Origin: Tetraselmis striata
Taxonomy: Eukaryota; Chlorophyta; Chlorodendrophyceae; Chlorodendrales; Chlorodendraceae
DNA: 64,000 bases
NCBI GenBank assembly: GCA_006384855.1
Contig: VCJN01001047.1
Coordinates: 1-64,000 of the forward strand
Direction: 5' to 3'
Made by a program: the position numbers and the translations under genes. Every line of letters starts with the position of its first letter. Within the stretch, counting starts at the first letter, position 1. Below the pieces are notes generated by a model. It saw only the letters and a list, made by a program, of their open reading frames with translations, was not told where the DNA came from and did no database searches. This document shows positions 20,715 through 62,230 of this stretch, one piece after another.

Positions 20715-22822
20715 TCATGCTTTATCCATGGGGATGACGTCTTCGCGGGGTGTGTACACATGCGCGATGTCATGCTTGGCATTGAGTGGCAGGTAGTCTT
20801 TGCGGGGAACTTCGCCAGCCTCCGGATCCTCCTCTTCTTGCGTGTCGCCAGCGCCCTTCTGCGCGCCCGAGCTGGAAGCAGCGCCCACGGCAAGCTCACC
20901 GCCAGTGCTGTGCTCATTGACCTCATCGTCTGAGGGAGACAGTTTGTGAGGACTCGACGCACTCTGTGTATTCGATTCAACCTGCTCCATCCTATCCGCG
21001 GCAGGAGGGGCGGGGCTGCTTGCAGCTTGTTCGGACTCCAGCAGCCTGGTGATGTTCAGCCCAGTCTCAACCAGGTCATCCAACATCCCCTTGGCGCTCA
21101 TTTCTGGCAAGGTCATGTTGAGGTGCGTGGCTCGGTGCCTGCTCATGCCGGGGGGGCGGACATCACGACAGACATGAGCCACCGCAAACAGCATCTCGAG
21201 TCAGGCTGATGCCGCAGGTCATGCAGTGAATGAGCAGGCAGTGCCGGCATTAGGGGGGCACCTTGCGAGATTCTCCGCCTTGCGGATGTCAGCTGCGGAG
21301 GGGGCTCCCGGCTTGAAGGCGTCCACAGTGAAGGGCACGTCGTCTTGCAGAATGCGCATTGGGTTTCCGTAGACTGGGTGGCTGAACTCCTTCCCGGGCT
21401 GACCGGCGATGGCATCCACCACCGCTTGCGATTGGGCATCGATCTGCAGCACATGGGTGCACAGCGAGAGCGCGGGTGAGCGGCCGCGGGGCTCATCATG
21501 TGGCGCGCTCTTCCCACTGGTTGTTACTGGCGCGATTGGCGTTACCTCTCCAAACACAGTGTGCGCGAGTCCAAACTCCGGGTGATCCCGCAGTGCGATG
21601 ATAAACTCCCGCGTGTTGGGCAGCAGCGCCACATGCCCCCGCCTGGACGAGTGTCGGGGCCCGTCTATCAGTACAACGCCAGCGGCCAAGTCGGAGGCAG
21701 CAGCGCACTGCTCAAACGGGTGGGTACGCGCGGCCGCTTTCTTAGATAATGAGACACGCTGGCATACCTCACTGCCAGGTTTCCTTCGAGGCTTGGGGCG
21801 TCATTGAGGCTGGCAAAGGTGCCCTGCAGCAGGCCTTGCCCGTGGTGACCGGAGGCATAGGTCTGTCGGGGTGATGGGCAGAGCAAAGAGCGGCGTTATC
21901 CCGCCGGTGTCAGCACTGGTGCCCAGAGGAAAGTGACCGACACGCCGCGGCAGGCACTGCGGGCATCGGGGAAGGACAGTGCAGCGCGCCACCTCATTGC
22001 CCTCGGCACGGTAGATCTTGCAGCGGGTGCACCCACGGGCGCCGCGCTGGGCAATGTGCAGCAGCTTGTACGTCGTCTTCGGGGCCGCGGTGCGGTAGAT
22101 GTTGATCGCAATCTGCAGGGCACCGCAGTCGATGAGCGCCACCGTGGGTGGAATGAGCAAGGCGTGCCTCCCGGTGGCATGCATGGCGTGCTTCCGCAGG
22201 GGCGTATGGCTCGTACCGTGCCATACGAGGTGTGCAGCCGGATCTGCCTGGAATCCTGCAGAAACAAGTCTTCCTGCAGCATCACAACCCGCTGTCAGCC
22301 CGCACATTTATAAAATGCACCTCACTTTCAATACCGCCATTGCGGGTGCCGTCCGTCTGGAGCATAGATAGGAGGCACAAGTCTACACGATGCATCAGGC
22401 ATGTCGGTGGGGGTGGCGTTTCTTTGAGGCGCCAGGGCTGTGGGATGGGTATCGGGTCGCACATGCTTTGGGATGCACCGCTTGCACGACTTCCGGCACC
22501 CCTGCAGCATGTACCTAGGGTTCCGGTCGCACTCCCCCCGCAGCGCCCACTCCCGGCAGTAGTTGCTGCTGTCGGCGCAGTGGTCTTGCACTGCGCGGCC
22601 ACGCACGCGCCAGCGCTCACAAGAGGGGCTGTGCCGGCACGCAGCTGGGATGGCACCCTCCCACCCCGCGAGTCCCTGAGGAGACGCAGCAGCCACCGCC
22701 CGGCGCGCACCTTCGGGGGGGCCTGTCCCCAATCCCAGTTGCTGCAGCTGCTCCTCCGACAACCCGTACGCCGCAGAAAGCCCAGCAACCACCAGCGCTA
22801 TGACTACGCCGCTTCTGTTCAT
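20715..22822 (-). CDS. secreted or luminal ShKT-domain cyclophilin-type peptidyl-prolyl isomerase-like protein
   Basis: Seven exons: 22822-22463, 22273-22217, 22112-21993, 21862-21768, 21642-21546, 21443-21262, 21138-20715; 444 residues with every phase matching. Residues 1-20 form a signal peptide (MNRSGVVIALVVAGLSAA). Residues ~82-116 are an ShKT domain with all six cysteines (CADSSNYC, WALRGECDRN, CRKSCKRC). From ~135 a divergent cyclophilin fold follows: LHTSYGT, INIYRTAAPKT, CKIYRAE, GLLQGTF, EFIIALRDHPEFG, HTVFGE. The classical catalytic Arg/Phe pair is not evident, so isomerase activity is doubtful. The last ~140 residues are acidic and Ser/Glu-rich. In plants and algae cyclophilin-like proteins with the RAE and HPE(W/F)G motifs occur; the ShKT fusion is what stands out. 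The acceptor of exon 2 could instead give a start at 22255. Confidence 0.75.
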
Positions 22823-24125
22823 CCTGTTCAGCGGCGTGTACCGTAGTGATGGCCTTCCAAAGGCGGACTGACTGCACCGGTTGGACGCCTCACCCAGCTG
22901 CAAGTTGAGGGAGACGCGTTTGGCCTGCATGCAGAGCAGCGGGCGCTCGGTCAGCACTCGGGCGCTTGCCACGCTGCAAACGCTCAAGCGCATGCAAAGT
23001 GAAAAGCGCAAACGCTCATGCAAGCTCAAATACTTCCGCCACGCTGTCACGCTCAAGCGCTTGTCACGCTGTGAACTGACGTGATAACCGAACAGGAGAC
23101 TTCCGGAACTGGTGGCGCTGCGGCGCGAGTCAAAGTAGAGCGAGCGACAGAGCGATAGAGGAAGAGGAAGAGGGGGAGAGGGAAAGGGGGAGGGAGAGAG
23201 AGTAACCTCTAGTGTGGGCAGCCGCGGAGGGCGCATTGAGAACAAAAGGTGGCTGAGGCGCATCAGCCACCCCGATGGACTAATTATTTGTCTGCAAGTT
23301 ATCTGAGGGGAACGGGGCCCCATGTCGGAGCATCCGCGCGGCGCCTACTGAAGGGTGCGGGTAAATCCGCACTCGAAGTACATACAGGACGCAGAAGCGC
23401 GAGCCGAGGGGGGTCAACGCGATTGGCTCCCAGAGGCGGCAGCGGATGCCAAAGACGAAGGCGCCGCCTACACGTATCCCTGCTCACCTGCCCTGCGGAA
23501 AGCGTGAACGCAGTCTTGCAGACTTCTGACACGACTCACCACGCCAGTGGCGGGCCAGGCAGAGTCGGAGCTGGTCGTTCTTTACCTCCTTAAAACGGAG
23601 GCTTACCGTACCTTAATATTCTGATACGACGCACACATAATCGTCAACCGGCGCTCGTCAGCACTCGTGGCGCAGAGAGAGGGGCGTTGAGGGGATGTCC
23701 TCGACCTAGGCCCGGCTCGCTCCGGATTCCGTGGGCGGTCTGCTGGCTTGGTGTGGCGGAACCGGGCCTCGGGAGGAGGGAGCGGGTCCGGCATACAGTC
23801 GCAAAGAGTGGAAGAGCGGGTCGGGGGGTCGCGCTACGGACCGTCGTAGCAGTTACTTCCGGGCCCATCGGTTTGATATCGAGTCATCATCGCATAGCTT
23901 CTCATACTGTTCTCATTCGGTGGTATTTACTATTATACCGCAACAACTGCTACCGCCGTCCACACGACGCGCCGCCGTTGTGCTGATACGGGCCGCGCGT
24001 ACCTGTACCAGCAGTACCTGCTGATGTACCCTCACACGCACGTGCACGTGCACGCGTGGCCCGGACTCAGAGCCCTGAGCGCATCATCCACAATTCCACA
24101 TCACTCATCCACATCCCGCCTCAGC
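22823..24125. other. stretch without a supported gene
   Basis: The minus strand just upstream of 22822 likely carries the cyclophilin promoter and 5' UTR; a GA-rich tract at 23147-23208 lies there. No other gene or motif is supported up to the mobile element. Confidence 0.4.
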
Positions 24126-24312
24126 ATGATCTAAACTAGTTTATGGGGTTTCCATCCTTGACCTAACCGCTTTTCAGCTACAAGTGCTGCGCAGTGGTAC
24201 GGGAACTAGTAACTGTTGTTGCGCCCTTGTTGGGTGCAGCACGAGTAGACATAAAAGCAGCCAGAACAGCTGAGCCTGCCATCTTCCAGTTTTCGCTGCG
24301 TTCCACGCAGCG
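24126..24312 (+). repeat. A1 terminal repeat of the YR element
   Basis: 187 bp, beginning ATGATCTAAACTAGTTTATG and ending CACGCAGCG. Same length and, by eye, same sequence as 27042-27228; closely similar to 61930-62117. Confidence 0.9.
24250..24257 (+). promoter_or_regulatory. TATA-like box within the A repeat
   Basis: CATAAAAG sits about 170 bases upstream of the gag-like ATG and recurs in each A copy (near 27166, 35772 and 62055). A promoter in the left repeat is expected for this kind of element; no transcript start is known. Confidence 0.3.
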
Positions 24313-24425
24313 ATGTAAAAACTGTCTCGTAACCCGTTGCGAGCAAGGTCACCCCAGGTTGTTCAAGACCACACCCGGCTCGCCATCCGAGTGTGATATT
24401 CTCGTCCGTACGTCCGTGCGTTACT

Positions 24426-25301
24426 ATGTCAGATGGAGAAGAACCCGTCGTTGAGCCGACGTTGGAGTCGCTGAACGCAGATATGAGGGCCCAGTCTTCA
24501 TTACTGCGAGAGCTGGCTACAGCTGTGGCGCAATTGACGGCTCGTGATCGCGTTGTTGATGGAGAAGGAGCACATGGCTCCGGCTCAGGGCAGCGTTTCG
24601 CGAGACAGCCGACAGGCAGCGGGGGAGCCGCAGAGCGCCCCGACTTGCTAGAGCTAGCCCAGAGCGGCCGTGTCGGAGCAAAATCCGTGAGTGCCGAGGA
24701 TGATTACCTCGCGGTGCCAGAGCTACTGCAGAGAGCAGAGTCTGGTTACGAGGCCGTTCGACCGGTCAGCCGAGTGCCTGGACTTTTCCCCTTGAGCACC
24801 GACCTAACGAACGAGTACCTCAAGCAGGATGACTGGCGTCTGCCGGCCCAGGAGGAGTACTTGTGGATGTCGTGTTTCGGGGCTCACATGGCCGCCCTTT
24901 TCGTGGCGCTCGACGAGCTACTGCCCTACGTCCCTACCAGCAACCAGGACTTCACCCCCTACCTCGCGAGAGCCCGGAACCACGCCGAGGCCATCGACAA
25001 GGCGTTTCGGTTTCGTTTGGCCTTCCTACGGAAGCTCAATGAGATCAAGCGTGTGCACGGTGACCAAGGTGTTCTGGACGTGCTGCGAGCCCAGCATTTT
25101 CAGCCTGCTTCGGAGCATCTGGGTTCCGCGATTTTTGGGGACCTCATGCGGGACTACGAGCGTCGTGTCTTCGAGGCGACCGTTGCCAGCAGCGCCAAGG
25201 CGACCGCTACTTCTCGAGTGGCGGCTGCAGTGGCAGGTCGCGGGCGTGGGCGAGGACGTGGCGGCGGACGTGGACGTGGCCGCGAAGGTGAGCACGAGTG
25301 A
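24426..25301 (+). CDS. gag-like protein of the YR element
   Basis: 291 residues from the ATG at 24426; an upstream GTG at 24393 is also in frame but the ATG is preferred. The N-terminal third is acidic and low-complexity, with Leu spacing that could form a coiled coil (LLRELATAVAQL). The middle is globular (EEYLWMSCFGAHMAAL, ARARNHAEAIDKAFRF). The C terminus ends in an RG/RGG tract (RGRGRGRGGGRGRG), a common nucleic-acid-binding tail. No zinc knuckle is seen. The ORF stops at TGA 25299-25301, and the following codons are in the same frame as the recombinase. Its role as a nucleocapsid-like protein is inferred from position and the RGG tail; it could instead be an accessory DNA-binding protein. 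Confidence 0.65.
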   Translation: MSDGEEPVVEPTLESLNADMRAQSSLLRELATAVAQLTARDRVVDGEGAHGSGSGQRFARQPTGSGGAAERPDLLELAQSGRVGAKSVSAEDDYLAVPELLQRAESGYEAVRPVSRVPGLFPLSTDLTNEYLKQDDWRLPAQEEYLWMSCFGAHMAALFVALDELLPYVPTSNQDFTPYLARARNHAEAIDKAFRFRLAFLRKLNEIKRVHGDQGVLDVLRAQHFQPASEHLGSAIFGDLMRDYERRVFEATVASSAKATATSRVAAAVAGRGRGRGRGGGRGRGREGEHE

Positions 25302-25304
25302 CGG
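25299..25304 (+). promoter_or_regulatory. candidate UGA-CGG stop-codon readthrough site between gag-like and recombinase ORFs
   Basis: The reading frame is interrupted only by TGA followed directly by CGG; open codons continue for another 553 triplets. UGA-CGG is one of the recognised leaky contexts in plant RNA viruses. The same TGA-CGG is kept in the second copy at 63088-63093. A short hairpin (CACC TTTC GGTG) lies about 40 bases downstream. Function is inferred. Confidence 0.5.
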
Positions 25305-26963
25305 TGTGGGGCGCCGTTCGTCGGAGCTGCAGGAGCCTTGCGAGGCCACCTTTCGGTGACCGCCGCAAGACGCACCCTTGCAGCTCAACGGCGGGATGAG
25401 CGCCCTGTGTCAGGACCTGACCCCCCCACCTTACAGACTTCATTTAGACCTTCCTCGGTGCGGCGCTTCTTACAGCTACAGCCGAGTGCGGCTCAACCAT
25501 CCGCACACCTGCACATGGCGGCTCAACCATCCGCCTTTCGTACAACCCCACCTTTGCGTTCGTCGGTTGTTACACTACGAGTTACAACCGGTTCGCAACG
25601 ACCAAGTTTCGCGCGTGTACGTTACGCACGGGACAGGCGCTACGAGCGCGAAGGGCGCGCGGGGCGGCCCTCCTACCTGAACCTAGCCCCGCAAACCCGT
25701 ACCGAAGCTACTGCAAACCCGTCCAGCAACTACCGGCCAACCGCCGGGAACCTAACCGCTGCTGCCGAGTACTTTGCGAACAGTGGCCGTGCCGGTGGCA
25801 CTCTGTCAGTAAAACGACGCACTTACGTAATCGACGAGCCCGCAGCTATCGCTCCGTGGGCTGCGTCACTGCGATCCCGACTACAGGACGCGTTCGGCTC
25901 AGACGAGCTAGGCCAGCGGACGCTCGACCTGCTCTCCAGCTCCCTCAGCGCTCAGACCCTCAAGAGCTACGCCGGCAGACTGTCTCAGTTCGCTGAGTTC
26001 TGCCACGACTCCGAGAACATCAGCCCGCTAGAGGCGACTACTGCTACTGTTGTTCGGTACGTTGCCTGGATCGGGGAGCGAGGGCACATCGCAGCTAAGT
26101 CGCTGCAGCCCTACCTGTCTGCAATCAACACCTTCTTCGAGCTGCACAACCTCGTCCCGATCGCCAAGGACAGCCTACACCTCACTTCGGCAAGGCGTGG
26201 GTTAATGTTGCGGCAGCGCCGACTGGACGCTGCCCCCTTGCGTGTCCCTCTGCCTGCGGATGTAGCTTACCGCTTCGTCTCAAAGGCCGAGCTAATTGTG
26301 TCTGCTCCTTACCCAGAGTCCCACCTCGACTACCGAGCCCTCTTGGCCTCGGTTGTCAACTTCCTGTTCTTTGCCAGGGGCCTTACTGGCGTCTCCTGTC
26401 GAGCGCAAGATGTGCATGTCGACACCTACAACATCACCTTGCAAATCTACCGCGAGAAGGGTCGCGCTGGCCGTCGGGGACCCGACGACCTGCGCGTACT
26501 TCTCCTTCCAGTGTCCGAGCACCCTCGAGTGGCACGACTCTTGCGCTACTTCATCAACAACGTCCAGTCTGTCCCCCTGGTTACTGTTGGCTTGGCTGCC
26601 TCCAACTTCTGGGCTGTCAATGTGGCTGAGCAGTCAAAACCTTGGACTGCGGCTACGATGTCAGACTGGTTGTCTACAGCGGTCAACCTAGTCAACGCTG
26701 CCCCTCCTGCTGGCACTTCCTGGACTTCCCACAGTCTACGTAAGGGCGCAGCCTCTGCAGCAAACGCCATCGGAGCGCCACTGTCCCACATCCGCTACCA
26801 AGGCGGTTGGGCCACTAACTCCGATGTCGTTCTGGACTACATCGACCCCAACGTTCTTCCTTCTCCTGGCGCGTGGTTCTTCTTTGGACACATCGCCCCC
26901 CTCCGCCACTTCCAAGTCCAACAGGACTCCGCAGCGGTGGCCTTCCCAGTGCCTCCTTCATGA
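25302..26963 (+). CDS. tyrosine recombinase (integrase) of the YR element
   Basis: The frame is open from the codon after the gag-like stop to TGA at 26961-26963 (553 codons); the first internal ATG is at 25515. Residues before ~170 (up to about 25800) are basic linker. A SAM-like core-binding domain follows (LSAQTLKSYAGRLSQFAEFC ... SAINTFFELH). The catalytic domain has the four expected positions: Arg in LFFARGLTG, HSLRKG (H-x-x-R), a Trp in GGWATNSD, and the nucleophile Tyr in VVLDYID. The enzyme would cut and join DNA at a short core through a 3'-phosphotyrosine, integrating a circular or linear copy. With no ATG directly after the stop, it may be made by readthrough as a gag-YR fusion, or from ATG 25515 alone. 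The copy at 63091 differs mostly at silent positions, so the protein appears to be under selection. Confidence 0.85.
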   Translation, partial: RCGAPFVGAAGALRGHLSVTAARRTLAAQRRDERPVSGPDPPTLQTSFRPSSVRRFLQLQPSAAQPSAHLHMAAQPSAFRTTPPLRSSVVTLRVTTGSQRPSFARVRYARDRRYEREGRAGRPSYLNLAPQTRTEATANPSSNYRPTAGNLTAAAEYFANSGRAGGTLSVKRRTYVIDEPAAIAPWAASLRSRLQDAFGSDELGQRTLDLLSSSLSAQTLKSYAGRLSQFAEFCHDSENISPLEATTATVVRYVAWIGERGHIAAKSLQPYLSAINTFFELHNLVPIAKDSLHLTSARRGLMLRQRRLDAAPLRVPLPADVAYRFVSKAELIVSAPYPESHLDYRALLASVVNFLFFARGLTGVSCRAQDVHVDTYNITLQIYREKGRAGRRGPDDLRVLLLPVSEHPRVARLLRYFINNVQSVPLVTVGLAASNFWAVNVAEQSKPWTAATMSDWLSTAVNLVNAAPPAGTSWTSHSLRKGAASAANAIGAPLSHIRYQGGWATNSDVVLDYIDPNVLPSPGAWFFFGHIAPLRHFQVQQDSAAVAFPVPPS

Positions 26964-27016
26964 CTTGGCGCTACCCCTTCTCCGTCAATCAACCGCTCTC
27001 TACGTTCGCTCAAGAC

Positions 27017-27349
27017 TGGCAAAACCAGACTCAACTTTGAAATGATCTAAACTAGTTTATGGGGTTTCCATCCTTGACCTAACCGCTTTTCAGCTACAAG
27101 TGCTGCGCAGTGGTACGGGAACTAGTAACTGTTGTTGCGCCCTTGTTGGGTGCAGCACGAGTAGACATAAAAGCAGCCAGAACAGCTGAGCCTGCCATCT
27201 TCCAGTTTTCGCTGCGTTCCACGCAGCGCCCCCCCTGACTCCGTTTTCCCTCCACGCTTTTCGCTAAACCTTCCTGCCAATTTCGGCTCTTGACCGTGTA
27301 AAACAGCCTGCGCGACCTTTTTGGCAAAACCAGACTCAACTTTGAAATG
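27017..27349 (+). repeat. b1-A2-b2 right-end module of the YR element
   Basis: The 28-bp b unit (starts TGGCAAAACCAG, ends CTTTGAAATG) occurs at 27017-27044 and 27322-27349, flanking A2 (27042-27228). The unrelated 93 bp between A2 and b2 is unique. Confidence 0.85.
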
Positions 27350-27638
27350 CGGGCGGCTTGCTGTGTTGATTTTTAGTACTACTTTTAGCAGTAGATGGTT
27401 TTGTTACTGCCCTTTTTGTAATTCACACCAGTACCTCCTGATGTACCGCTTCGTGCGGGATGATGCGGGCGCCGCTTTTAGGCGGCTTGCTCTGTTGATA
27501 TACATTTCACAAGGAACGTCTGGTCTGCCGAAGAATGCCAGGTCTGGTTACAGGTTGTGAAAATCAGGAATTTGCAGGCATACAAATCCACAGCCACGGC
27601 GGGGGCGGGGGGGGGGGGGGGGGGGGGGGCGGGCTGTG

Positions 27639-27818
27639 GTGCGCTCGATGGAGCGTGCCACAGCAAAGGAGAGTGACCGGTCGGTCCGCCGTGAAGGCAG
27701 GTAATGGCCCTGACCGGCCCCCGCAATCGTGCGCGCGCACACACGCGCAGCGGGCGCTGCCGTGCCAAGGCTATCTCGTACAGGTAGATAGAGAAACCAC
27801 ATATACTAGTTTAGAACA
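27639..27818 (-). repeat. A repeat (3' copy) of the RT-bearing element
   Basis: 180 bp, about 90% identical by eye to 30358-30530. Both contain CGCTCGATGGAGCGTGCC and a GC-rich GTGCGCGCGCACAC stretch. Confidence 0.85.
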
Positions 27819-27849
27819 TTTCACAAGGAACGTCTGGTTTGCCGACTAG

Positions 27850-29804
27850 AAAATGCCGGGCGCAGCAGGCCATGGGCGGGGGTCACGGGTGGGAATGTTG
27901 AAGGCGACGACACGCCAGCGGGGTGCACCCACGGGAGGCGGTCGCTAGTACGGCCAGGAATGAAGAGGTCGTGGCGCGGCTTCCAGGAGCGCAGGTCAGA
28001 GCATATCTCCGAGAGGAGCTGGTCCCAAGCTTTGTCAGGCCAGTAGGGAAGAATGACGATGGCTGGGGCACCGCTGGACTCCAGTTTGGAGACAAGATCG
28101 CCGATAAGGTTCCATGGAGGGTTACACCAGTTACGTTCGCAACGCCATGCAGCGTCGGAGAGGCGCAAGGCGTCAACGGCCTCGCACCGCGGGTCACGCC
28201 AGCGGGCGTTGTGGCGGGGTAGGGGGCGTTTTCAGCCGTCGCGAAGCGGTCGATGGTGCACGCGCCCCATTCAGTAGTGAGCGAGGCGAATCGACGAGGG
28301 TTGAACTGCCAGTCGTCGCAATCAACCTCGCGACTAAGGCGGTCAGCCCAGATATTTGCCGCAGAACGGATGTAGCGCACGGAAAGGGTAATGCCGTATG
28401 TGTCCATGAGGTACCATGTTTTGCGTAGCTAAGCCATGAGGCGCGGAGAGCGAGAAGTGAGGTGGGTGAGGACGCCGACAACCGCTTGGTTATCCTCGTG
28501 CAAGCGGATGTGACGGTTACGGAGCATGGGGAGGAAGGACTCAATAGCCAAGCGGACGGCTTTGAGCTCTTTCAAAGTAATGTGCGCAGTGTGGTCATCG
28601 TCGTACCAAAACCCCCGAGCTTCATGGTGCTCGTTCAGAAAGGCACCCCAACCGTACGACGAAATGTCAACGTGTAGGTATCCGCTTTCGACGGGGCGGT
28701 TAATGGGGCGGCCGTTGTGTTGGGTTGGCACGCCCACCCACCATTGCAGATCGCGTTCGAGCTGGCGGGTGAGCTTGACGCGACCGGACCAAGAGTCGCG
28801 CGTCTTGAGCACATCATGCAGCTCACGGAGGTAGAAATAACGTGCAGGGGCGATGGCCAAGTAGAGAAACTGGCATTTGCCTGCGAGAGCGGCCAACTAG
28901 CGAGCTGGCAGCCACCGACGATTGCGTTTTGCTCGTTGGATTAGGCGTTTGGCCGCGCAACCGATGCCAGCCAGTTTCTCAGCGGGCGCACGAAGAGTAG
29001 GCGACCCCGATGTGTCATTTTCTAACCCCAGGTGCACGAGCTTTTGGGTGGGCTCCCACACGCCCTTGTTGGGGTTGCGCAGCGGATAGACCAAATCCTG
29101 AGAAGTGGCGTTCGATGTAGTCATGCACGTTGCCAGATATGGCCTCAGCCTGAGTCCGAGCTAGTAACATGAAATCGTCCATGTATGTAGGGTAACATGC
29201 GTAGGCCAAATCGGCGCCGGGGAATAGGTGTGCCGTCTGCTTCAGCCGGGTGACGAGGCAATGCCCTAGTGAGGACGTTGGTGAATTGGCAGAAGTAATA
29301 GGTGGACAGAGACCAGCCCATGGGAAGGCCAACCAATCGGTACTGAGTGCCGCGGTAATCGATAGTGAAAAAGTCCATGTCCTCAGGGGCGATTCCAACC
29401 GCGTAACACCCATCCTGCGGGTCCATCTGCAACATGTAGTCCCCAGGGCGCGCCAGATTGCGCAAATGCGAAAGCGTCTCGAACGGAAGATAGCGCGTCT
29501 CGCAATAGCAGTTCATAGGGCGAAGGTCAATGACGAGCCTCCATTTGTTTGTTCATGGCTTAGGAACCAAGAACAACATAGACAACCATTTTGCGCCAAC
29601 GGCCGGGAAGCGAGCCAATTCACCGTCCATAAACTCCAATCGGGAAGGGGTAGCATCCCCCATTGACACCCTCTGATGAAAAGAAGGTGGGGCAAGCCCG
29701 TCCAAGAAAGGAACGCGTACACCTCTGGATATCCGGTTGAGAACATTGCGATTCGCACCAGCGGCTTGCCAGTTGCCGAAATTACGACGGACGCGATGTA
29801 TCAT
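27850..29804 (-). pseudogene. reverse transcriptase - RNase H - adenine-methylase-like polyprotein (DIRS/PAT type), disrupted
   Basis: Domains in order: RT fingers (GVRVPFLDGLAPP, MLFLVPKP), RT palm (YMLQMDPQDGCYAV, then the YMDD box in YPTYMDDFMLL), RNase H (LHVDISSYGWGAF, HITLKELKAV, LHEDNQAVV, ANIWADRLSR) and a methylase-like domain with WCNPPWNL. Relatives copy RNA into DNA and degrade the template. Lesions: in-frame TGA after LFLVPKP (about 29560), TAG near 28898 and 28435, and frameshifts around 29270, 29040 and 28200. The copy is therefore inactive, although its domain order is complete. DIRS/PAT affiliation rests on the RT-RH-methylase order and on the split repeats. Confidence 0.75.
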
Positions 29805-30357
29805 AAAGGGGGAGTCGGGAGTACATGAATTGGCGCGATATATGTCGCGATGCTGGCCCTCGCCGCGTCGGCGTCAGGGCCCACGGTGCGCGGCACAGTA
29901 GGAGTGCCGCGGCGTGGGAGTAGCCATGTGCCACTAGGCGCTGGCTTGGCCACTGGCAGTGTACTGTCACTTTGTACTCGAATATGTACTAGAAGGCGGG
30001 CGTGCGTCGGCATACGCCCAAGTCGGAGCGCATCGCGACACCTACGTCGAGTAGGGGTCAGTACGGATTGAGCCATGCCCACACAGGAAGGGGCAGCCTG
30101 GGGTTACTGTTGGTCGACACTGGTCGAAGGGCTTGGACCTTGTTCCACTGAATGGGGACGAAGCGCTGCGGCTTCGTCCTCTCCTCGCGTTGGGCGAGTA
30201 ATCAGCAGCTCGTTCGCGGGTAGTAGTTAGCACGTCGCAAGCGGCGCGCGTCCATTAACCACACAAACTAACGGGTTTCTCCCCAGGGGGGGCCCGAAAG
30301 GCTACGCTCACCGTACATGGTACGATGGCGGAAGACCGGCACCCTGCGCGGCACAAT

Positions 30358-30530
30358 GTGCGCTCGATGGAGCGTGCCACAGCAAAGGAGAGTGACCGGT
30401 CGGTCCGCCGTGAATGCAGGTAGTGGCCCTGACCGGCCCCCGCAATCGTGCGCGCGCACACGCACGCTACGGGCGCCGTGCCAGGGCTATCTCGTACAAG
30501 TAGAGAAACCACATAAACTAGTTCAGAACA
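30358..30530 (-). repeat. A repeat (5' copy) of the RT-bearing element
   Basis: 173 bp matching 27639-27818; the element's 5' end when read on the minus strand. Just outside it (30556-30625) is sequence similar to 27390-27450, so the insertion may sit within an older duplicated sequence. Confidence 0.85.
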
Positions 30531-35219: not shown

Positions 35220-35572
35220 TTGGCTCACGGTGCAGCAAAATTATCGGCTTCATCGGACTGGCTCCCTACGACCATTCATCTCGTTGGTGCTGCACCTCAT
35301 GCCGGCACAACCTGGACCTCCCACATCCTTTGCAAGGGTAGTACTGCCTCTGTTGCGAACTCCATCGGAGTCCCGCTGTCCTACATCCGCGACCAACAAG
35401 GCGGGTGGGCAACCAACTCCGACGTCGTCCTTGACTACATCGACCCCGACGTCCTCGCGCTCCCTTCACATGGCGCGTGGTTCTTTGTCGGCCACATCGC
35501 CCCTTCGCAACTTCCAAGTTCAACACGATTCCGCCGCGGTGGCCCTTCATGTGCCCCCTCCGTGACGTAGCG
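35220..35572 (+). pseudogene. C-terminal remnant of a YR-element tyrosine recombinase
   Basis: About 115 codons align with the end of the 25302-26963 recombinase: SDWLPTTIHLVGAAP, TTWTSHIL, GGWATNSDVVLDYID, HGAWFFVGHIAP. The catalytic HSLR has become HILC, so the Arg is lost, and one codon is inserted before GGWATNSD. The upstream part of the element is missing. Confidence 0.8.
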
Positions 35573-35617
35573 CTACCCTTGCTTTGTCAATCTGCCGCTC
35601 TACTCTACTTGCTTGCT

Positions 35618-35901
35618 TGTAAAACCATACTCAACTTGAAATGATTTAAACTAGTGTATATATTGTTTCCTCCTTTCCTAACCGCTTTTCCGGCTACATG
35701 TGATGATGCTACGTGGTATGGGTTACCAGTTTGCCCGTCGCTGCGCCCCTTGTAATGTGCATCACGAATAGACATAAAACATATTAGTTACATGAGCTAG
35801 CTGCAAAAGGTAATCAGGAAGCCACCCGCAATAGGCATAGATAACCAACCGCAACAGTTGAGCATGCCATCTTCGAGATTCGCTGTGTTACACCCAACGC
35901 C
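35618..35901 (+). repeat. degenerate b-A junction of a third YR element with a nested insertion
   Basis: The junction TTGAAATGATTTAAACTAGT at 35636-35655 matches the b1-A2 junction at 27038. The A sequence continues to about 35901 but is interrupted at ~35785-35845 by the dispersed core also found in R1. Confidence 0.7.
35786..35845 (+). repeat. short copy of the R1 core inserted in an A repeat
   Basis: GTTACATGAGCTAGCTGCAA, then GGTAATCAGGAAGCCACCC. The flanking A sequence resumes right after, so this is a nested insertion of a ~60-bp unit. Confidence 0.6.
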
Positions 35902-36100
35902 CTGATCCGCCGTGACTCCGTTTTCTGCCAGTCGCCGCAGTTTTTACGTAAAGCGTTATTTGACTACTGCAGTGGCAGTGGGCTAGTGGTCTAGCGACTA
36001 TCTGCTTTTCATTCCCCCGAATAATAGACGACATACCACGAACAAATATTCCCCCGCCGCGGCGCCGTAAACTACAGTAACGCATGTAGCGACTCCCGCC

Positions 36101-36650: not shown

Positions 36651-39420
36651 ATGGTGTCGCCGGCCGTGAAAGAACCGAGATCAGCAAAGAAGAAGAAGAA
36701 CCTCTTCAACAACTTCGTGTTCGAGTCCAAGGAGAACGACATCACCAACCTTGGCACGCTAAATTTGGCGTCCGTCCAGTTTGGAAACAAAGGCAGCAGC
36801 ACGCCGGAGCGACAAGGCAAAGGTGAAGCCATGCTCAGCGCCCGTGCGCCAGTAGTGTGTCAGCAGGGTGGCGGTGGCGGCAGCCAATTGTTCACCATGG
36901 GTACTTTTGCCTGTGTTGCCGGCGGTTGCAAACTCGCAGTGTTCGAGGGCTTTTCCGCCATCAATCCGCTCAGCAGCGCGACAGAGGCGCCGAATCCCAC
37001 TGATCGCCATGGGTCAGCCTCTCCCGCTTCTGGCAAGACGGGGCCTTCGTACGGAGTGACGAGCGACGGAGAAACAGTGCACGTGAAAGTGTTCGCGCCG
37101 GATGTCTCGCAGTAAGTCGCCCCTGCCTCAATGGCAGTTCCTTAGTTAGTGCCCGCCACTCACGGCGCTGTTGGATCCCCACTGACTCTGCACTCCCGGG
37201 CTGTAAAGGGAGGCTATTGATAACGCAGCGGATTCCGACGGCGAGGACGAGTCCGCCAAAGTCGCGGGCTGCACGTCAGCCACCAAGCAATTCAGGTATT
37301 TATCTCGCGGATTCTGTTAGTACTGCTAGAAGTGATGGCGATACACCACTTGCTTTCATGCTCGGGACGCATCGATGCGGCTCCCCGGTCTTCAGCGGCG
37401 CCTACCTCGGCAGAAGTGGGAGCAGTGCAGCGTCCTGACGCTGTGGTGTGCATCCCGCAGCTTGGAGATTCCGCAGGAGCCGTTGCCGGTTGCTGGCCGC
37501 AGAGCATACCTGACCGCCCCCTGCGACGGCTGCCCCACCATCATGACCGTCCACCGCCACCAGGTGAGCATGGCGAAGGTTCTGCAGTGAATTTCACGGT
37601 GGTGAGATCCCCTCCAGCTGCTGGATGCTGGCTAAGCACCCCCCCTCTCCCGCCGCTCTGCCGGCCGCAGGCTGCGGGGCTGCTGGAGCTGTACCTCGAG
37701 ACGCAGCACTCCAGCCTCTTCCTGGGTGCCGCGTACAAGCGCAGGGGCGCGTACACCCTGTTTCAAGACCGCGGGGACAGCAACACCTCCAGCCCCAGCT
37801 ACATGGGGAAGGTGCGTGATCATCCAGCAGCGACGCCTCTCCCCTCTGCTGTATTGTAGTAGCAGGCCCACTCGCGTGTGAGGCCCATTGCGAAGTCTAC
37901 GCAGACCTTGGTTATTGGGCCTGCGGGTCCAGATAGTAGTGATGATTTCTTCGCCATATTGCGCATTACAGAACTCCATTTCTCCAGTGATGCACGTGAC
38001 TATCTGTTTCGACTTCTCTTTGCGGCGGGGCGTGTTGGGGGGGAGGCGGGGGGGGGGGGGGGGGGGGGGGTGGAGGTAAAGACCAATAGACCATAATGGT
38101 GTGAACCCAAAAATGCGTGTCCGCAGTGCGGTTCCTGTGCCAGTAAGGCTGGCAGGCGTAGCATGGCGCCCCATTCCCTCACTTAGCCCTCTCCCGGTGG
38201 TGCATCCCGGCAGGTTCTGATAAGCGCCAATCACACGGAATACGTCCTGGAGGAGTTTGTGGCGGAGAAGGAGTGCAAGCGGACTGCCTGCGTGTTCTTC
38301 AAGAAACGCTTCTCCGCGACTGGTGCGCTGGCGGCCCTCAGTCTCGAATCCATGCGGCATGGCAGGGCGCGGGGGGGGGGGGGGGGGGGGGGGGGGTGTC
38401 GGATGTGGGGGCACGGCGGCAGCTGCGTCGCTGTGCCCGTATCATTGCTCTGTGGCCCCCATGGTCATCAACTTGCCCGTCACAGTGCTGATGGGAATCG
38501 ACTCTGCTCTAAAAGTTCCCAAAATTTCTTCCAAATCGAAAAGCCCCTTGAGTGTACCATACGCTATGGATTGGCCATTTTAAACCGTAGTGACCAACGC
38601 GATAGGGCGGGTCGCCGTGTGGGTGTTTCATACATATCGCAACCCCGGCAGAGAGTTTTCGGCTCTCTAGAATAAAAAAGTTAAATTCTCTCTGGGACGT
38701 GTACAATAAGTTGAATTTGATCCCATATTCACCGGGAATCAATCTCGGCGCCTCATAATAAGAAGAAATCCTCGCCTTGGGACTCTGAGAGGAAAGAATT
38801 AGATTTATCGCCCCCCCCCCCCCCCCCCCCCTCATCCGGCTACGCTACAATTTTATTATTGCCGCCAATAACCCGTGTTATAACCGCACCATTATTTAGT
38901 TCACCCCCTCCCCCCCTCGCCAATGCAAACAATTCTACGCCATGTCAATTCTGGGACTGCTTGATAGTATTTCACCACGCGCTTCGTATAAACTGCCCTC
39001 AAGTCGTAACATTTCGGTGACCCCCCCGGATGCACAGGCGTGCCGCGCAGCTTGACGGCGCTCATCCCGGAGCGTGCGGGGGACGGCCTGCCGGCGAAGG
39101 ACCTCACCCGCGTGGCGCGGAAGGACGCCACCGCCATGACCGGGCTGCGCGCCCTGAAGAACGCCCTGCCGGTCTGGGACCCCGAGGCGAAGGGGTACGT
39201 GCTAGACATGAGCCAGCGCATCCGGCTGCCGTCGGTGAAGAACTTTCAGATGAAGGAGTGCAAGCCCGGCGAGAGCAAGCCGGAGGGGACTGTGCTGATG
39301 GAGTTTGGGAAGTCCACCGCCAGCACCTTCGCGCTGGAGTGCCGCGCGCCGCTGTCCATCCTGCAGGCCTTCACCATCTCTGTGGCGATGATCGACTCCT
39401 CCCTGCTGGTCACCATGTAG
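36651..39420 (+). CDS. tubby-like protein (TULP family)
   Basis: Six exons: 36651-37111, 37209-37295, 37461-37563, 37671-37811, 38214-38322, 39038-39420; 427 residues with all phases fitting. Tubby-domain proteins bind phosphoinositides and, with IFT-A, carry membrane cargo into cilia. The N-terminal ~185 residues are basic then low-complexity (KKKKNLFNN). The tubby domain begins near residue 190 (RRAYLTAPCDGCP, TVHRH), continues through LFLGAAYKRRGAYTLF and SPSYMGKVLIS, and closes with LPSVKNFQMKECK, VLMEFGKSTASTFALECRAP and QAFTISVAMIDSSL at the C terminus, as in the family. No F-box is present, unlike most land-plant tubby-like proteins, so it resembles animal/protist TULPs. It sits head-to-tail with a TTLL gene 1 kb downstream. 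Confidence 0.85.
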
Positions 39421-47819: not shown

Positions 47820-50800
47820 CTGCGGGGAATGAAGGCGCCGAGGGTGGGTGGGGGTCGCCGGGTGGGGCGCGGGGGGTATCAGCAATTGCCTGGCTGACTA
47901 TGTCACCCGCTGCGCTTAAAGAAAGGGGAAAGCGGGGGGTGGGGGGGGGGGGGGGCGCACGTTTCTCCACTCTCCTTGCCGCTGGAAGCGCCCTCCTCGT
48001 CCGCATCCAGGGTCTGCGAGGTGATCCACTCCGCGACGTTCTCCCAGCTGACGTTGCTGTCCGGCTGCCCCGCCACTGCCTGCACCCACCCCTGCACGAA
48101 GGCCTCCTTGACGATGGCGTTGGGGAGCACATCCATGAGGAAGCCCCGGACGTTCTGCCGCTTCAGCGGCTTGCGGAGGTCGCCGGCGACGCCTCTGAAG
48201 GCCGCCTCATACCGCACCAGGGCCCGCCGGTCGAGCAGCATCCGGATCATCCTCTTCTTCGGAAGGGGGACCCGCACCGCCCTCACGTAGGCCACGGCGC
48301 TGACCAGGGCTGCGCGGAGGGGATTTTGGAAAGCAAAGACGCCGCGGCTCGCCGCCAGCAGCGGCTCGGCCTCATCCTCCTCGACTATCTCGGCAACGGC
48401 ACCATCGTCGTCGGTCGGGTCGAGGTAATCCACGATGAACAGCATGAAATCGTGCCGCCTGCGATGCACAGCCACAGGGAGGACAGGTGAGCCGAGGGAA
48501 ATCCCTGGGCCGGGTCAGACCTCCGCGCATTCACTTCGAGCGTACTTGATGGACGCCTCCGTCTGGAGGTGGCGCTGCGGGAAGAGCTTCTTGAAGACCG
48601 GCGCCCCAAACTCGCCCACCGACTTGCCTGCCTCCCTCAGGTCGGCAACGTTAATGCTGCCATCGTCCCCAGAGAGGTCCTCGAAGGCCTGGACGGCTGC
48701 CTCCCTGCCCATGATGATGATCACCTGCAAGGCGCCAAGCACACTGAGGTCGGCGGCTGCTCGGCCGGTAGCGAGCCGGGGGGGGGGGCGCGCGGCGTAC
48801 CATTTGCTGGGCGTCGCTGCTGTTGGCGTTGTCCGCGTCGTTGGCCTGAGTTTGGCCGGCCTTGTCCGGGTGAGCGCCGAGCACCAGCCCCCAGAAGGTA
48901 TCCGAGAAGGCCCACAGCCCCTTGGAGCTCACCCCCTCATGCTCCTCAGCGTGCTCCCCAGATCCCTGAGCCAACCGGGGATTCCAACTGAGCGCGCACG
49001 ACAGGCGACCGAGCGAGACGGGGCGCGGCGGTCGCATGCTGCAGCTGTTCTGGTGCGGCGCACCTCCTTGGCCTCCGCCAGGATGTTGTGCAGGTCGGAG
49101 GGGGTGACAGCACAGCCAAAGCCCTCCAGCAGGCGCCGGAGCTCAACCAGCCCCATGACCTCCTCGTTCCGGGACTTGCGGTAGAAGGCGTCCAGGAACT
49201 CGTCGTAGCCGTCCTGCGCATGAGGCACGGCGGGCGTCAGTCACCCGGGCAGGCGCTGCGCCAAACAGGGGCGGCCCCACGGTGAATGGCATGCACCTGC
49301 AGCACGCTCAGCTTGGTGACGATGTCCTTCTGGAAAGCCTTTGCCATGTTGGCCACGACCTCGAGCGCGTCCTCGTTGCCAGGGGCCGTCGCCGTCGATG
49401 TCGGAGCCCTTGAGACTGTCCCCATCTAACAAGCAGCAGTCGGGCAAATGGGGTGTAGCGCGGTCAGCGGCGGGAGCAGGGCACACACGGAACCTGCCAG
49501 AGCTGGCGCACGGGGGGGGGGGGGGGGGGGAGGGGGGGGGGGAGGCTGTGGTCTACCAGAATCGTGCGCCAGCTCGTCAAGCTCGTCATACAGCGCCAGC
49601 AGGTCCTCTGCAATATCCGCCGCCATGGTCCCCCGCCTGCGTCACGCAGTGCCTCAGAGCCGGCGGAAGGGCGGCAACGGCAGGGGGCCCGGCGGCGGTC
49701 AGCACCCACCTGCCCATGCTCATGCCCATGGCGCGCTTAAGCTCGTGGTACTGATCCTCCCATCTGGGGTTCTCCGGGGCGGCGTTCTGGAAGGGAATGA
49801 GTGGGGGCCTCAGTGGACATCCCGGGATGGAGCTGTGGCGACGGCCAGGGCGGGATGGGCGTGAGGGTGCGGGTGTGACCACCTTGCGGTTAGGGTTTGC
49901 CATCTCGGCAGCCAGGACCTTGGTATGCTCCCAGAGCGCATCCGTGAGGGAGCCAATGCGATCGCAGGTCGCCGTCTGCCTCTCCCTGATGTCCGCCCAC
50001 ACACGCCTGGCCGTGGCCATGAGCTGCAGGGCCGTGAAAGTGGTGCGTCGCTGTGCGAGGATGCGGTTGTCGTCGATCTCGTTCGCGGGCTTGCCCTCCC
50101 CCTGCGATGCGCCGCTTGCGTCAGGGTGAGCTCGAGCCTCGGGAATCAGGCGGGAGGAGGGGAGGGGCCCGCCCCCGGGGGTCCGCCCCGCCGCGTACCT
50201 TTTCGATGTTGAGCTTGAGCTGCTCCCGGACTTCTTCCAGGCTGACGGTGCGCAGCATCTCCTGGTACTGCTCCATGAGCTCCGGGGTGGCGCGGGACCC
50301 AGGGGACTCCGCCAAAGGCGGCCAGCAGGCGTGCACTGTGCACATGGCCGTTCTTGAGGGCGTCCTCCACTGGGGTGTTGTCCCAGCGGTCCTTCACGTT
50401 GGGATCGGCGCAGATGGAGATGAGGTAGGAGATCGCCCGGAGGCGGCCCTTGCTTGCCGCCAGGTGGAGCGCGTAGCGGCTGTCGTAGTCCTTCAGGTTG
50501 AGGTCCACCTCTGCGTCCTTCAGCAGCTGCAACATGTGGACGTCGTCCGCCGCGGCGGCGTCGCACAGCTGCGAGCCGCTGGCATTGGAGCTGCCGTCCT
50601 TGCTCAGCTGGCCGCCGTACTTCTTGATGATCATCATGACCATGTGGTGCCCGTTCTTCACAGCATCGTTCAGCGGCAAGCCGCCCCAGCGATCCTCCGC
50701 ATTGGGGTTGCCTCCGTTCGCCAGCAAGTATTCGATCGACTTTTGCGCGCCAGACGCAGCCGCGAGATGCATGGCTGTGCGGAGGTCGTAGTCTCCGGAG

Positions 50801-53800
50801 TTGGGGTCGATGCCATTGTCCACGAGGCGCGCCAGCTGCAAGCAGCCGGAAGCAGCGCCGCGTCACACCCTGTGCGCCTCCCCTCACACCGTGGACGGAA
50901 CGACAGGGTGAGCCGGGGCGCACCTGGACCGTGTCCTCCTTGTCCGCGGCGCTGCACAGGGCCCCGGCCGGGTCTGCCACCTTGAGCGAGGCGCCGTGCT
51001 GGCTGAGCACCGTCAGGGCCTGCACGTTCCCGCTGTCGACGGCCTTGTGGAGCGGCGTCTTCCCCCAGCGGTCAGCAATGTCCTTGTCCGCGCCCTCCTC
51101 CAGCAGCGTCTCCAGCACCTTGACGTTCCCGCTCAGCGCCGCGAGGTGCATCATGCTGCGACAGTACCGGCCGGCAGTCAGGCCATGCGCGGCGAGACGC
51201 TGAAACACCACCCGCGGGGGTGCACAGGCACCGGCGCCACCTGCTGTTGTCGTAGTTTGACGTGTCGACGTCCACACCCTTGCGGATGAGCGTCTTGACG
51301 TTGTCCACCTCGCCCATGTTCACGGCATACGTGAACTGGTTCTGGAGGTCGTCCAGGTGGTTCTGGACGGCTTTTACCACCATGTCTCGGAGCTCGGCGA
51401 ACAGCTCGTCGTCATCCCGCCCGTCCGACGTCCAGCCCGCAAGCGGCTGCCCCTTGGTGTCGAGTCCGAAGGTGGAGAGGATGTTGGTGGCAATCACGTC
51501 CTGCTGCTCCGGGTAGTTTGGCGATCATCTCGTTGTACTTGCTGCGCGAGAGAACCAACACAGTGGCGTCCTTGGTGCTCCGGCACGCCACCTGCGAGTC
51601 GCCATAGCTCCGTCAGCCCCCCCCCCCCCCCCCTGGGCATCTTTCAGGCCTTGCAGATTGTTGCAGCACATTCGCAACGTATAGACATGTGTGGCATTCA
51701 ATGTCTCGTGTGTGTTTGGTGTGTTTATATTGTAGGCATGTACGCATGAGTGCGACACCAGCAAACAATTGAACCCTCCGGGACAGGAAGAAAGCGAAGT
51801 CCGGTGCCTGGAGGGCTCACTGTAGGAATACTCACTTTATTGGAACTACTACAATAGGCAATGTGACTGTTTAAATATGCTCGACAACATACAGTCTGTT
51901 AGGAAGGAAGTTTGGCAACTAGAAATAGAATAGAAATAGGAAATGTGTTGATAGCTTGGAGTACTTTCAAAAAACTGACGGATACATCGCAGTCGTATTG
52001 CAATTCGATGTCGGAAAGCACTAAGGACACTATTTGAGTTTGTATTGCCCATGTATACTGAGGAAAACATTACACGTGCATTGTTTCAAATTGTATAGCG
52101 ATACAAGAATGCGGACCGAAATCATACTGGCCGCAATGCACAGTGTTCTTTCATGCGTCAGGAAATCCTTGTACAACTAAACGTGTATTAAACGCATATA
52201 CATACGGGTAAGAAGTACATAGCGCGTTTGTTAATGATGTTGCAGACATGAAGGATTACGCAATCCTTACCATCAGATCCAACTAGTCTGCAACACATAA
52301 AATAAATGCAAGGTTTCAACAAGTGACAGGGGCAGATAGGTCAGCGCGTGCAACCCACCTTGTAGGGCTGATGGGTGTTAAGGAAGAAGGCGATCTCCCC
52401 CACCATGGTGGGCATGTCCCCCCCACCATCGTGGCCATACACGGACCGCAGGACAGCCTCCCCCTGGATGTTGTCCTTGTAGATGATGTCAAGCACCCCG
52501 GAGGCAACGAACCCGAGCTCCCGGCCAATGTCTCCATCCGCTATGAACTCCTCCCCTGGCATGAGGTACGCCTGCGGGATCGGGACACAAGTCGGTGGAG
52601 AGGAGCCACCGCGGCACAGCGGATGCCCGCGAAACGGTTGGCCCTCTCGTTGGCCTACCAATGAGGGTGACATGCAACATTCAGTGGCAAGGGCCTAGCC
52701 GGCCCGCTATGGTCCATGACTCACCGGGCCGTGATACAGTTAGCATGCGCAGCTTTGAATGTCTGGGCGGGAACAAAGTTTGGGCCTCTCACCTCGTGGA
52801 CGCTGACCAGGAGCGTGTTTATGAACTGCTCGATGCACCCCCGCAGGGGCGCCCCGGGCACCGAGCAGGTCTCAATGACCGCCCTGTACTGGCAGCTGGC
52901 GACGCGCAGCTCCAGGGTTCGGGGGAGGCCGATGTCGTCGCTGTAGGTGTCCTTGGACTTGATGTAGGTGAAGTCTATGTACTGCACCACGCGCTGCTTG
53001 AGGTGGTTGGGCAGGTGCCGGTCGTTCATGAACTGCTGCACCCTGGAGATCCGCCGCCGGTACGCCTCCAGCGCCTCATCCTTGGCCACCAGGTGGTGGA
53101 ACAACGTGCCTGCCCATGCGAATACACATGCCCCCCTTAAGTAGCCAGCCCCCTCGTGCCCCTTTGACCGCCAATCCAGGGCTCCCGTATCACCGGCACG
53201 CACCGAGGACATATGCCGCCAGGAAGACCTGGAAGATGATGGTGAACATGCACCAGACGACCTCTGCGGGGTTGTTTGGGCGCTCTGTGTCGTAGCCAAA
53301 GTTTGTCATGCCGTTGCCGCCCCGGAACAGGATGAGGAGGTACGTGCTGCCAAGGCCCGCGGTCTCGGGGTCGTAGAATGTCAAGAGGGCGTTCGCGAGC
53401 CTGGTCACCTGCGCCCGCACCACCAGGCACTTGTCACGCATGCCGCCTTTCCCCGCAGCCAAAGATGACCGCTACGCAAGATTACGGAGATTTGAAATTT
53501 GAAACTCGGAATTTCTCACTACTATATTCCTGCCCAGCTCTTCGTTGCTGCCCATGCCAGCTTGGTCACAGCCCGGCTTCATGGGCCCGTCACAATAGCC
53601 TGGCTAGGCCGGCTGCATATCACCCTCTGAAGGCCAAGGTCGGAGCGCCCCCCCCTCCCAAGACCGGAGCCCCCCCCTCCCGGCAGTTGTCGCAGCGTGT
53701 TTCCATACACAGTACGCAGTGATGGCCCCGGGAACCCGCATGGCGGTCACTGGAGTTATGCCGGAGGAGGACGGGTGTTCGTAATGGGTGGATGGACATA

Positions 53801-60888: not shown

Positions 60889-61548
60889 GCCGGCGCCCAA
60901 GATATGTTGGCAATGTGCATGCGCCCCCACCATTCTTTGAAATGATTACTACTAGTAGGTGGGTTTCCTTTCCCTTGTCGTCTACTTAGCATGCGCGGTA
61001 CGGCGCAAGTCTGGTGCTTATATGGTGCTAGTATACCGTACCGCCCGAGGAGCTGCATCGACCCCGCAACGCCTCGAGGAACTGCATCTACACTGTACTC
61101 CAGTACAACACCGCCACACCGTACAGCAACACCGACACCACCCGCGTGCGGTTCCCGGCGCAACCATCCCGGTTAGCGCTGCTCCATCCCTCATGTTGCT
61201 TCGCCGTGTGCTTAAATAAAGCCGGCGCCCAAGATATGTTGGCAATGTGCATGCGCTCCCACCATTCTTTGAAATGATTACTACTAGTAGGTGGGTTTCC
61301 TTTCCCTTGTCGTCTACTTAGCATGCGCGGTACGGCGCAAGTCTGGTGCTTATATGGTGCTAGTATACCGTACCGCCCGAGGAGCTGCATCGACCCCGCA
61401 ACGCCTCGAGGAACTGCATCTACACTGTACTCCAGTACAACACCGCCACACCGTACAGCAACACCGACACCACCCGCGTGCGGTTCCCGGCGCAACCATC
61501 CCGGTTAGCGCTGCTCCCTCATGTTGCTTCGCCGTGTGCTTAAATAAA
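60889..61548 (+). repeat. tandem 332-bp duplication of a YR-type b-A junction
   Basis: Unit 1 is 60889-61220 and unit 2 is 61221-61548; they are nearly identical except for a 4-bp deletion in unit 2. Each contains CTTTGAAATGATTACTACTAGT (split here: CTTTGAAATG | ATTACTACTAGT) and GGTGGGTTTCC, matching the junction of the 24-kb element, and ends in AAATAAA. No ORF is convincing. Confidence 0.85.
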
Positions 61549-61929: not shown

Positions 61930-62117
61930 ATGATCTAAACTAGTTTATGGGGTTTCCTCCCTTGACCTAACCGCTTTTTAGCTACAAGTGCTGCTCAGTG
62001 GTACGGGAACTAGGCATCTGTTGTTGCGCCCTTTTTGGGTGCAGCACGAGTAGACATAAAAGCAGCCAGAACAGCTGAGCCTGTCATCTTCCAGTTTTCG
62101 CTGCGTTCCACGCAGCG
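61930..62117 (+). repeat. A repeat of the second YR element
   Basis: 188 bp, a few differences from 24126-24312; begins ATGATCTAAACTAGTTTATG, ends CACGCAGCG. Confidence 0.85.
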
Positions 62118-62230
62118 ATGAAAAAACTGTCTCGTAGCCAATTGCGAGCAAGGTCACCCCAGGTTGTTCAAGACCACACCCGGCTCGCCACCCGAGTGTG
62201 ATATTCTCGTCCGTACGTCCGTACGTTACC

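Follow-up and report, generated by a model that had tools for sequence, protein, structure and literature searches.

PAT-like elements, of which Pat1, Toc3 and Kangaroo are known members, are tyrosine recombinase (YR) retrotransposons of the DIRS order. They are bounded by split direct repeats in the order A1-B1-A2-B2, and as described in the cited parts of the literature a single unit carries the reverse transcriptase (RT) together with the methylase and the YR (PMC4157794, PMC3266345). This report concerns a locus in the chlorophyte Tetraselmis striata where these functions lie in two units. The DNA analysed, called the window throughout, is positions 1 to 64,000 of contig VCJN01001047.1 (here C833) of assembly GCA_006384855.1, which comprises 224 Mb in 2903 contigs. 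At 24126-30530 two elements lie convergently, tail to tail: unit 1 on the + strand, with a gag-like open reading frame (ORF) and a YR, followed by unit 2 on the - strand, with the RT. Units 1 and 2 together have the split repeats, the RT-RNase H-methylase and the YR of the PAT group, and unit 1, like that group, inserts without target duplication. Its gag-like ORF has a single cysteine, which agrees with the lack of a CCHC zinc finger in Toc and Kangaroo (PMC4157794, section cited). By its sequence this is a split PAT-like element, with the repeats and domains of the group and without its one-unit feature. In Kangaroo the YR is inverted inside the RT element, whereas here it sits in a separate element, and the convergent neighbours of the window merely resemble that arrangement. 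PAT-like elements have also been reported in Chlamydomonas and its relatives (PMC8226300) and in Ectocarpus (PMC12477816), and the portions cited detail no such split. Among the papers surveyed, of which subscription journals made up a thin share and some were available in part, no such split is described, which is weak evidence of novelty. TOC1 of Chlamydomonas is a non-autonomous relative. We consider it fairly probable, from sequence comparison, that the locus represents a PAT-like YR retrotransposon with its functions split over two elements, which move separately and complement each other. The features concerned are as follows.

24126-24312, + strand: unit 1 repeat A1; left end TGAT/CTAAACTAG..., a GC-rich hairpin closing A
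24426-25298, + strand: ORF1, gag-like by position, 291 amino acids, RG-rich C-terminus
25299-25301, + strand: in-frame UGA, then CGG, the frame running on as YR; candidate readthrough site
25302-26960, + strand: ORF2, tyrosine recombinase, 553 open codons, first Met at codon 72 (Pfam, Cre alignment)
25308-25406, + strand: predicted long RNA stem-loop, 6 nt past the UGA codon (folding)
27017-27044, + strand: unit 1 repeat b1 (self-comparison of window repeats)
27042-27228, + strand: unit 1 repeat A2, identical to A1
27322-27349, + strand: unit 1 repeat b2; the copy-constant part stops at GAAA inside it
27502-27531, - strand: unit 2 repeat b2 (repeat comparison)
27639-27818, - strand: unit 2 repeat A2 (repeat comparison)
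27816-27845, - strand: unit 2 repeat b1 (repeat comparison)
27821-30103, - strand: RT-RNase H-methylase coding region, fragmented across several frames here, a single open frame of about 763 amino acids in other copies
30358-30530, - strand: unit 2 repeat A1 (repeat comparison)
35289-35925, + strand: old gag-YR relic, 3' part of YR plus the b1/A2 region, about 75% identical (sequence comparison)
61930-63998, + strand: second gag-YR copy, 92% identical, truncated by the window end, UGA CGG kept

The first-pass annotation had read the locus as two adjacent complementary halves, gag-like plus YR without RT (24126-27349) and RT-RNase H-methylase without YR (30530-27502), both bounded by split direct repeats of their own in the order A1...b1-A2-b2; the content, the positions and the repeats all proved right. 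Repeats A1 and A2 of unit 1 agree at 187 of 187 positions and b1 and b2 at 28 of 28. The YR frame matches the Pfam family Phage_int_SAM_1 with 33.3 bits, over the cut-off, and Phage_integrase with a sub-threshold 18.7 bits; when it is aligned with Cre (E 0.0063), the H-x-x-R, W and Y correspond. ORF1 matched nothing in Pfam or PHROGs, and its label as gag comes from its position and RG-rich tail. Structure models of ORF1 (helical, low confidence, predicted local distance difference test score, pLDDT, 44.5) and of the C-terminal 389 amino acids of the YR (pLDDT 35.9) were too poor for fold search. The window copy of unit 2 is decayed: A1 and A2 have diverged to about 90.6% identity, b1 and b2 agree at 97% over 30 positions, and the RT and RNase H pieces match Pfam weakly. 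An open copy elsewhere (L020) gives RVT_1 at 62 bits, RT_RNaseH at 26.2 bits and Dam at a sub-threshold 16.7 bits. Across the assembly 30 gag-YR copies (that of the window included) and 31 RT stretches were read closely, and open frames of 753-824 amino acids occur in 8 of the latter. The A repeats of both units close in GC-rich hairpins that differ in sequence, a possible common signal of the two. Long G or C runs occur at 27601-27630, between A2 and b2 of unit 2, and around 38020-38850.

Is the RT-less plan of unit 1 the result of one deletion? The annotation had argued against this from the second copy at 61930. That copy, cut off by the window end, matches unit 1 over 2.1 kb at 92% identity and keeps the same RT-less order as far as the window reaches. 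Taken together with the 75% relic, which has the YR end beside b1-A2, it makes the plan unlike one recent deletion. Directly upstream of this copy, 60889-61520 holds a 300-nt direct duplication at 99% identity, 332 nt from start to start.

The two-unit plan is a property of the whole genome, beyond the window. A count across the assembly, which the annotation had proposed as a check, found both units to be multicopy: the b1-A2 junction of unit 1, GAAATGATCTAAACTAGT, occurs exactly 962 times and that of unit 2, GAAATGTTYTAAACTAGT, 263 times, these being counts of junctions and not of whole elements, and the reversed patterns of both gave 0 occurrences. In all 30 gag-YR copies A1 and A2 lie about 2.9 kb apart, and no RT was found between A1 and b2 in any of them; three stretches (L039, L053, L056) do have RT matches, all of them in the flanks. 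Both A repeats of unit 2 are present in 27 of the 31 RT stretches, 1.7-2.8 kb apart, with A1 alone within the remaining 4, and no YR or gag match was found in unit 2 in any of the 31. The proposed search for an RT and a YR inside one pair of A repeats thus returned none in either sample. In the similarity searches the best 150 of 1808 RT, 78 of 7744 YR and 150 of 4355 YR matches were scored. The 78 scored unit 1 YR matches are 98-100% identical, and 74 of them have no internal stop. When the two YR lists were merged into 190 distinct copies and set against the 150 RT matches, 8 pairs lay within 12 kb, two of them sharing one RT match. In seven of the 8 the partners occupy opposite strands; the sole same-strand pair (on C2695, L010) has the RT unit's own A2 before the YR.

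Several such neighbourhoods may be recorded. Unit 1 and unit 2 copies adjoin at C2868:35122-41616, C833:24126-30530 and C2695:139-5976. On C2695 the unit 1 copy, by its coordinates, seemingly begins exactly where the RT unit ends, and that RT unit matches its counterpart in the window at 99.6% identity over 3.0 kb. Beside L054 (C1691:53465-58123) a further unit 1 copy lies, by coordinates, about 90 bp away in the same orientation.

Can joined elements be seen by this approach where they exist? A genome search with the methylase family PF05869 found further families. In one of them an RNase H-methylase (L071, C793:11700-12500, 0.8 kb) is 30% identical to that of unit 2 over 231 amino acids, and a second piece (L072, C793:12900-13400, 0.5 kb) is a putative YR, judged by a box-I-like stretch and a weak PHROGs integrase match (E 0.055); it had no match in Pfam or in PDB, and the unit 1 YR profile did not match it. 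In 29 copies out of 29, relatives of this piece follow the methylase match on the same strand, about 0.8 kb downstream from where that match starts, these at least 29 copies being every PF05869 match listed with profile positions 6-8 to 108-109. The approach therefore detects joined RT-YR elements where they are present. More diverged YR relatives (28-39% identical) occur among the matches listed, some close to methylase matches. The C793 family is like the split pair in the kind of its RNase H-methylase and unlike it in having RT and YR joined; by these comparisons conventional elements coexist with the split pair and are distant from it. The annotation had named full-length elements as possible parents of which the two units would be deletion derivatives. 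Conventional RT-methylase-YR elements do exist, which bears out half of this, but the sampled one is 30% identical to unit 2 over 231 amino acids and its YR-like piece is unmatched by the gag-YR profile. A family with a Dam-like methylase domain and open frames up to 1534 amino acids (L070, C2030:1300-2250) was considered as a full-length candidate and rejected, its match to unit 2 being marginal (59 amino acids, E 0.005). A search with Phage_integrase (PF00589), a model poorly sensitive to these YRs, gave 7 matches in the genome, none of them on the contigs of the methylase matches listed. A match of 117.6 bits at C1804:118938-119390, far over those of the element YRs, may belong to another mobile element or to a contaminant contig. 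Viral contigs were searched for relatives of the YR and RT, and none were found. Patterns of telomere type matched 5 and 3 times.

Both units are maintained by selection. Single-base codon variants were counted among copies with open frames (28 for YR, 30 for gag, 8 for RT), the gag count using the stop-to-stop frame and so including about 31 codons upstream of the ATG. Variants that recur in at least 2 copies, the majority of which must have gone through transposition, number 28 synonymous and 9 nonsynonymous in YR, 16 and 7 in gag, and 22 and 7 in RT. The neutral expectation is 2.1-2.4 nonsynonymous changes per synonymous one, and relative to it the shared variants stand at about 0.15, 0.21 and 0.13 respectively. 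Single-copy variants (60 and 30 in YR, 34 and 20 in gag, 50 and 63 in RT) show weaker constraint, most clearly in RT, as expected if copies decay once inserted. Pooled over pairs, pN/pS comes to 0.16 for YR, 0.22 for gag and 0.43 for RT. All three ORFs are under purifying selection.

What connects the two units? The similarity found between their DNA in the window is a 48-bp block at the b/A junction, 83% identical, which would be the putative binding part for a recombinase. Left ends read TGAT/CTAAAC in unit 1 and, for the majority of unit 2 copies, TGTT/CTAAAC or TGTT/TTAAAC. On the right, unit 1 copies end in GAAA, as do the three unit 2 copies in which this end is visible (L025, L032, L069). 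Target sites could be compared for the 30 gag-YR copies and for 26 of the 31 RT stretches, the other 5 being omitted because the start of A1 was not located, and L009 and L010 representing one duplicated site. Base -1 is G in 0/30 gag-YR and 0/26 RT sites, base -2 is T in 24/30 and 20/26, and base -3 is never C in either. With L010 omitted, the target matrix of the gag-YR copies scores 1.93 on the RT sites (shifted controls: mean -3.27, standard deviation 0.84, maximum 0.93), and the RT matrix scores 0.95 on the gag-YR sites (mean -4.10, standard deviation 0.69, maximum -1.60), so that all 249 shifted controls are outscored in both directions. At one place a unit of each kind (L045 and L038) sits 3 bp apart within repeats 75% alike. 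An empty site is available for unit 1: when the flanks of one copy (L040) are joined, all 300 bases align with L005:5591-5890, at 96.3% identity and ungapped; the insertion therefore neither added nor removed other bases. The suggestion of the annotation that a shared junction lets one recombinase integrate both units gains from this target preference, which is common to both types of insertion. With no YR in unit 2, its insertion is most simply explained by the YR of unit 1, and the comparison of sites makes it very likely that one recombinase is shared by both units.

The PAT-type model of reverse transcription predicts that a single template gives rise to both A repeats. In unit 1, 8 copy-sites vary in A1 and A2 of the same copy (4 columns in 1 copy each, 1 column in 4 copies), 5 single changes are one-sided, in A1 or A2 only, and no one-sided variant is common to several copies; the last four columns, outside the repeat, were set aside. 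The mean A1-A2 distance within a gag-YR copy is 0.17, against 0.72 when partners are reshuffled (n = 30). In RT units the corresponding values are 2.15 and 3.06 (n = 20), or 3.95 and 5.08 when two window-type copies are retained (n = 22), and all three observed distances lie below all 10,000 reshufflings. The concerted signal is weaker in RT units than in gag-YR units; in the window RT copy (L009, with its near-duplicate L010) A1 and A2 differ at 26 columns. The concerted variation fits reverse transcription as the model predicts, and gene conversion could mimic it. On this pattern it is highly probable that unit 1 is copied through reverse transcription.

In some retroviruses pol is made as a gag fusion, and the frames of unit 1 suggest a similar expression. 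ORF1 and the YR ORF share one frame with a single UGA and CGG between them. The string TGA CGGTGT is present in 30/30 gag-YR copies and in the 92% copy, and an exact 22-base pattern around it occurs at 754 sites in the genome. The 130-nt stretch containing the stem-loop at 25308-25406 folds at -64.3 kcal/mol (z -2.82), with 1 of 200 shuffles equally good. Type II readthrough, as the cited part of its description has it, uses UGA followed by CGG or CUA, often with a stem-loop about 6-12 nt downstream (PMC11166343). Unit 1 has these sequence features, UGA CGG and a stem-loop from 6 nt after the codon, which suggests that the UGA CGG between the gag-like ORF and the YR is a readthrough site in a YR element; in that case the YR would arise fused to the gag-like protein. 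A start at the YR's own Met was also considered. The first Met is codon 72, and the preceding 71 codons are open in 28 copies; variants in these codons (singletons 7 synonymous and 3 nonsynonymous, shared 0 and 1) are too few to reveal selection.

A scenario for the pair may be proposed. Unit 1 would give the gag-like protein and, through presumed UGA readthrough, a gag-YR fusion, and unit 2 would give a single RT-RNase H-methylase protein. Both RNAs would be reverse transcribed by the RT of unit 2, the RNA intermediate and the RT source being parts of the model. The A/b repeats would regenerate the ends and yield a presumed DNA circle, with a b/A junction nearly alike in both families, and the unit 1 recombinase would insert either circle at a short common target without target duplication. 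By parsimony, unit 2 is probably the source of the RT that copies unit 1. That the two units obligately depend on each other seems to us somewhat to fairly likely, and we lean slightly towards an obligate binary retrotransposon, a gag-UGA-YR unit plus an RT unit, kept by complementation and a common recombination site.

Could the two units do without each other? Both might be non-autonomous, with a conventional full-length PAT-like family moving them in trans. Such elements are present, one family numbering at least 29 copies, and so are the diverged YR relatives, some by methylase matches, but purifying selection acts on the ORFs of both units in transmitted variants, which a pure parasite would not need, and the conventional element sampled is 30% identical in its RNase H-methylase, with a YR-like piece that the unit 1 profile does not match; we hold this account to be unlikely. 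A little less likely still is dependence in one direction, in which RT units borrow the YR and gag of unit 1 while unit 1 is copied by another RT, from a conventional PAT or other retroelement. It draws on the fact that the shared target and junction speak only for a shared recombinase, and not for unit 1 RNA meeting unit 2 RT. Against it, unit 2 alone among the RT-bearing families had its ends read here, and it shares the junction core; its copies are numerous and selection acts on its ORF. Precedents exist for parts of such relations. In barley, one family of long terminal repeat (LTR) elements is packaged in the particles of the other, BARE1/BARE2, as one-way parasitism by a gag-less element; in the portion cited, RT and integration enzyme are not divided between two partners (PMC3735527). 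The pol-less Athila elements of Arabidopsis are non-autonomous with ORFs under purifying selection, and a contribution in trans was proposed; they are LTR elements, and the cited section describes no partner family with complementary genes (PMC2410132). As far as these sources go, the analogy would make BARE2/BARE1 and Athila precedents for the use of gag in trans and for selection on incomplete elements, and not for a reciprocal split.

Unit 1 might alternatively be a Crypton-like DNA transposon that moves by its YR without reverse transcription. The YR without RT and the insertion without duplication are as in Cryptons. Those have a YR domain only in the account cited (PMC4157794), whereas unit 1 adds a gag-like ORF, which is under selection and in frame with the YR through a readthrough context, and split direct repeats that vary in concert as if from one template, so this is very improbable. 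Hardly credible is that the units are unrelated deletion derivatives, neighbours by chance without functional link. Adjacency of the window type is indeed atypical, the 190 YR copies and 150 RT matches giving 8 pairs within 12 kb; against chance stand the common junction block and target preference, the purifying selection, the hundreds of junctions of each unit and, in the copies read, the fixed plan of each family.

Several points weigh against mutual complementation. Only the best candidates of each search were scored, so diverged full-length relatives could have escaped. Conventional RT-methylase-YR families have many open, near-identical copies, and RT or YR could come from them, ends having been read for units 1 and 2 only. 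The target comparison likewise spans these two units, so that it does not yet single out the recombinase of unit 1. Several other joined-flank alignments across unit 1 junctions are gapped and some are shorter, and a gap-free empty site, sought for the RT-unit copies, was found for none of them. A frame of at least 740 amino acids is kept in just 8/31 RT stretches. The A repeats of RT units have 96 one-sided copy-sites against 15 shared ones, 62 of the 96 being held by L009, L010 and L016. The evidence throughout is genomic sequence.

Elsewhere in the window, ORFs on the - strand at 49589-51277 (ankyrin repeats) and 22331-23323 (ShK-like domain) are possibly host genes.

Retrotransposons are usually viewed either as complete elements or as parasites of these. 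If the split between the two units is true, such a reciprocal division would be among transposons what a multipartite virus is among viruses. It would then become testable how two selfish elements maintain each other, and how common the use of RT or recombinase in trans is among YR elements. The junctions of the two units would provide a defined pair of substrates for the sequence that a PAT recombinase reads.

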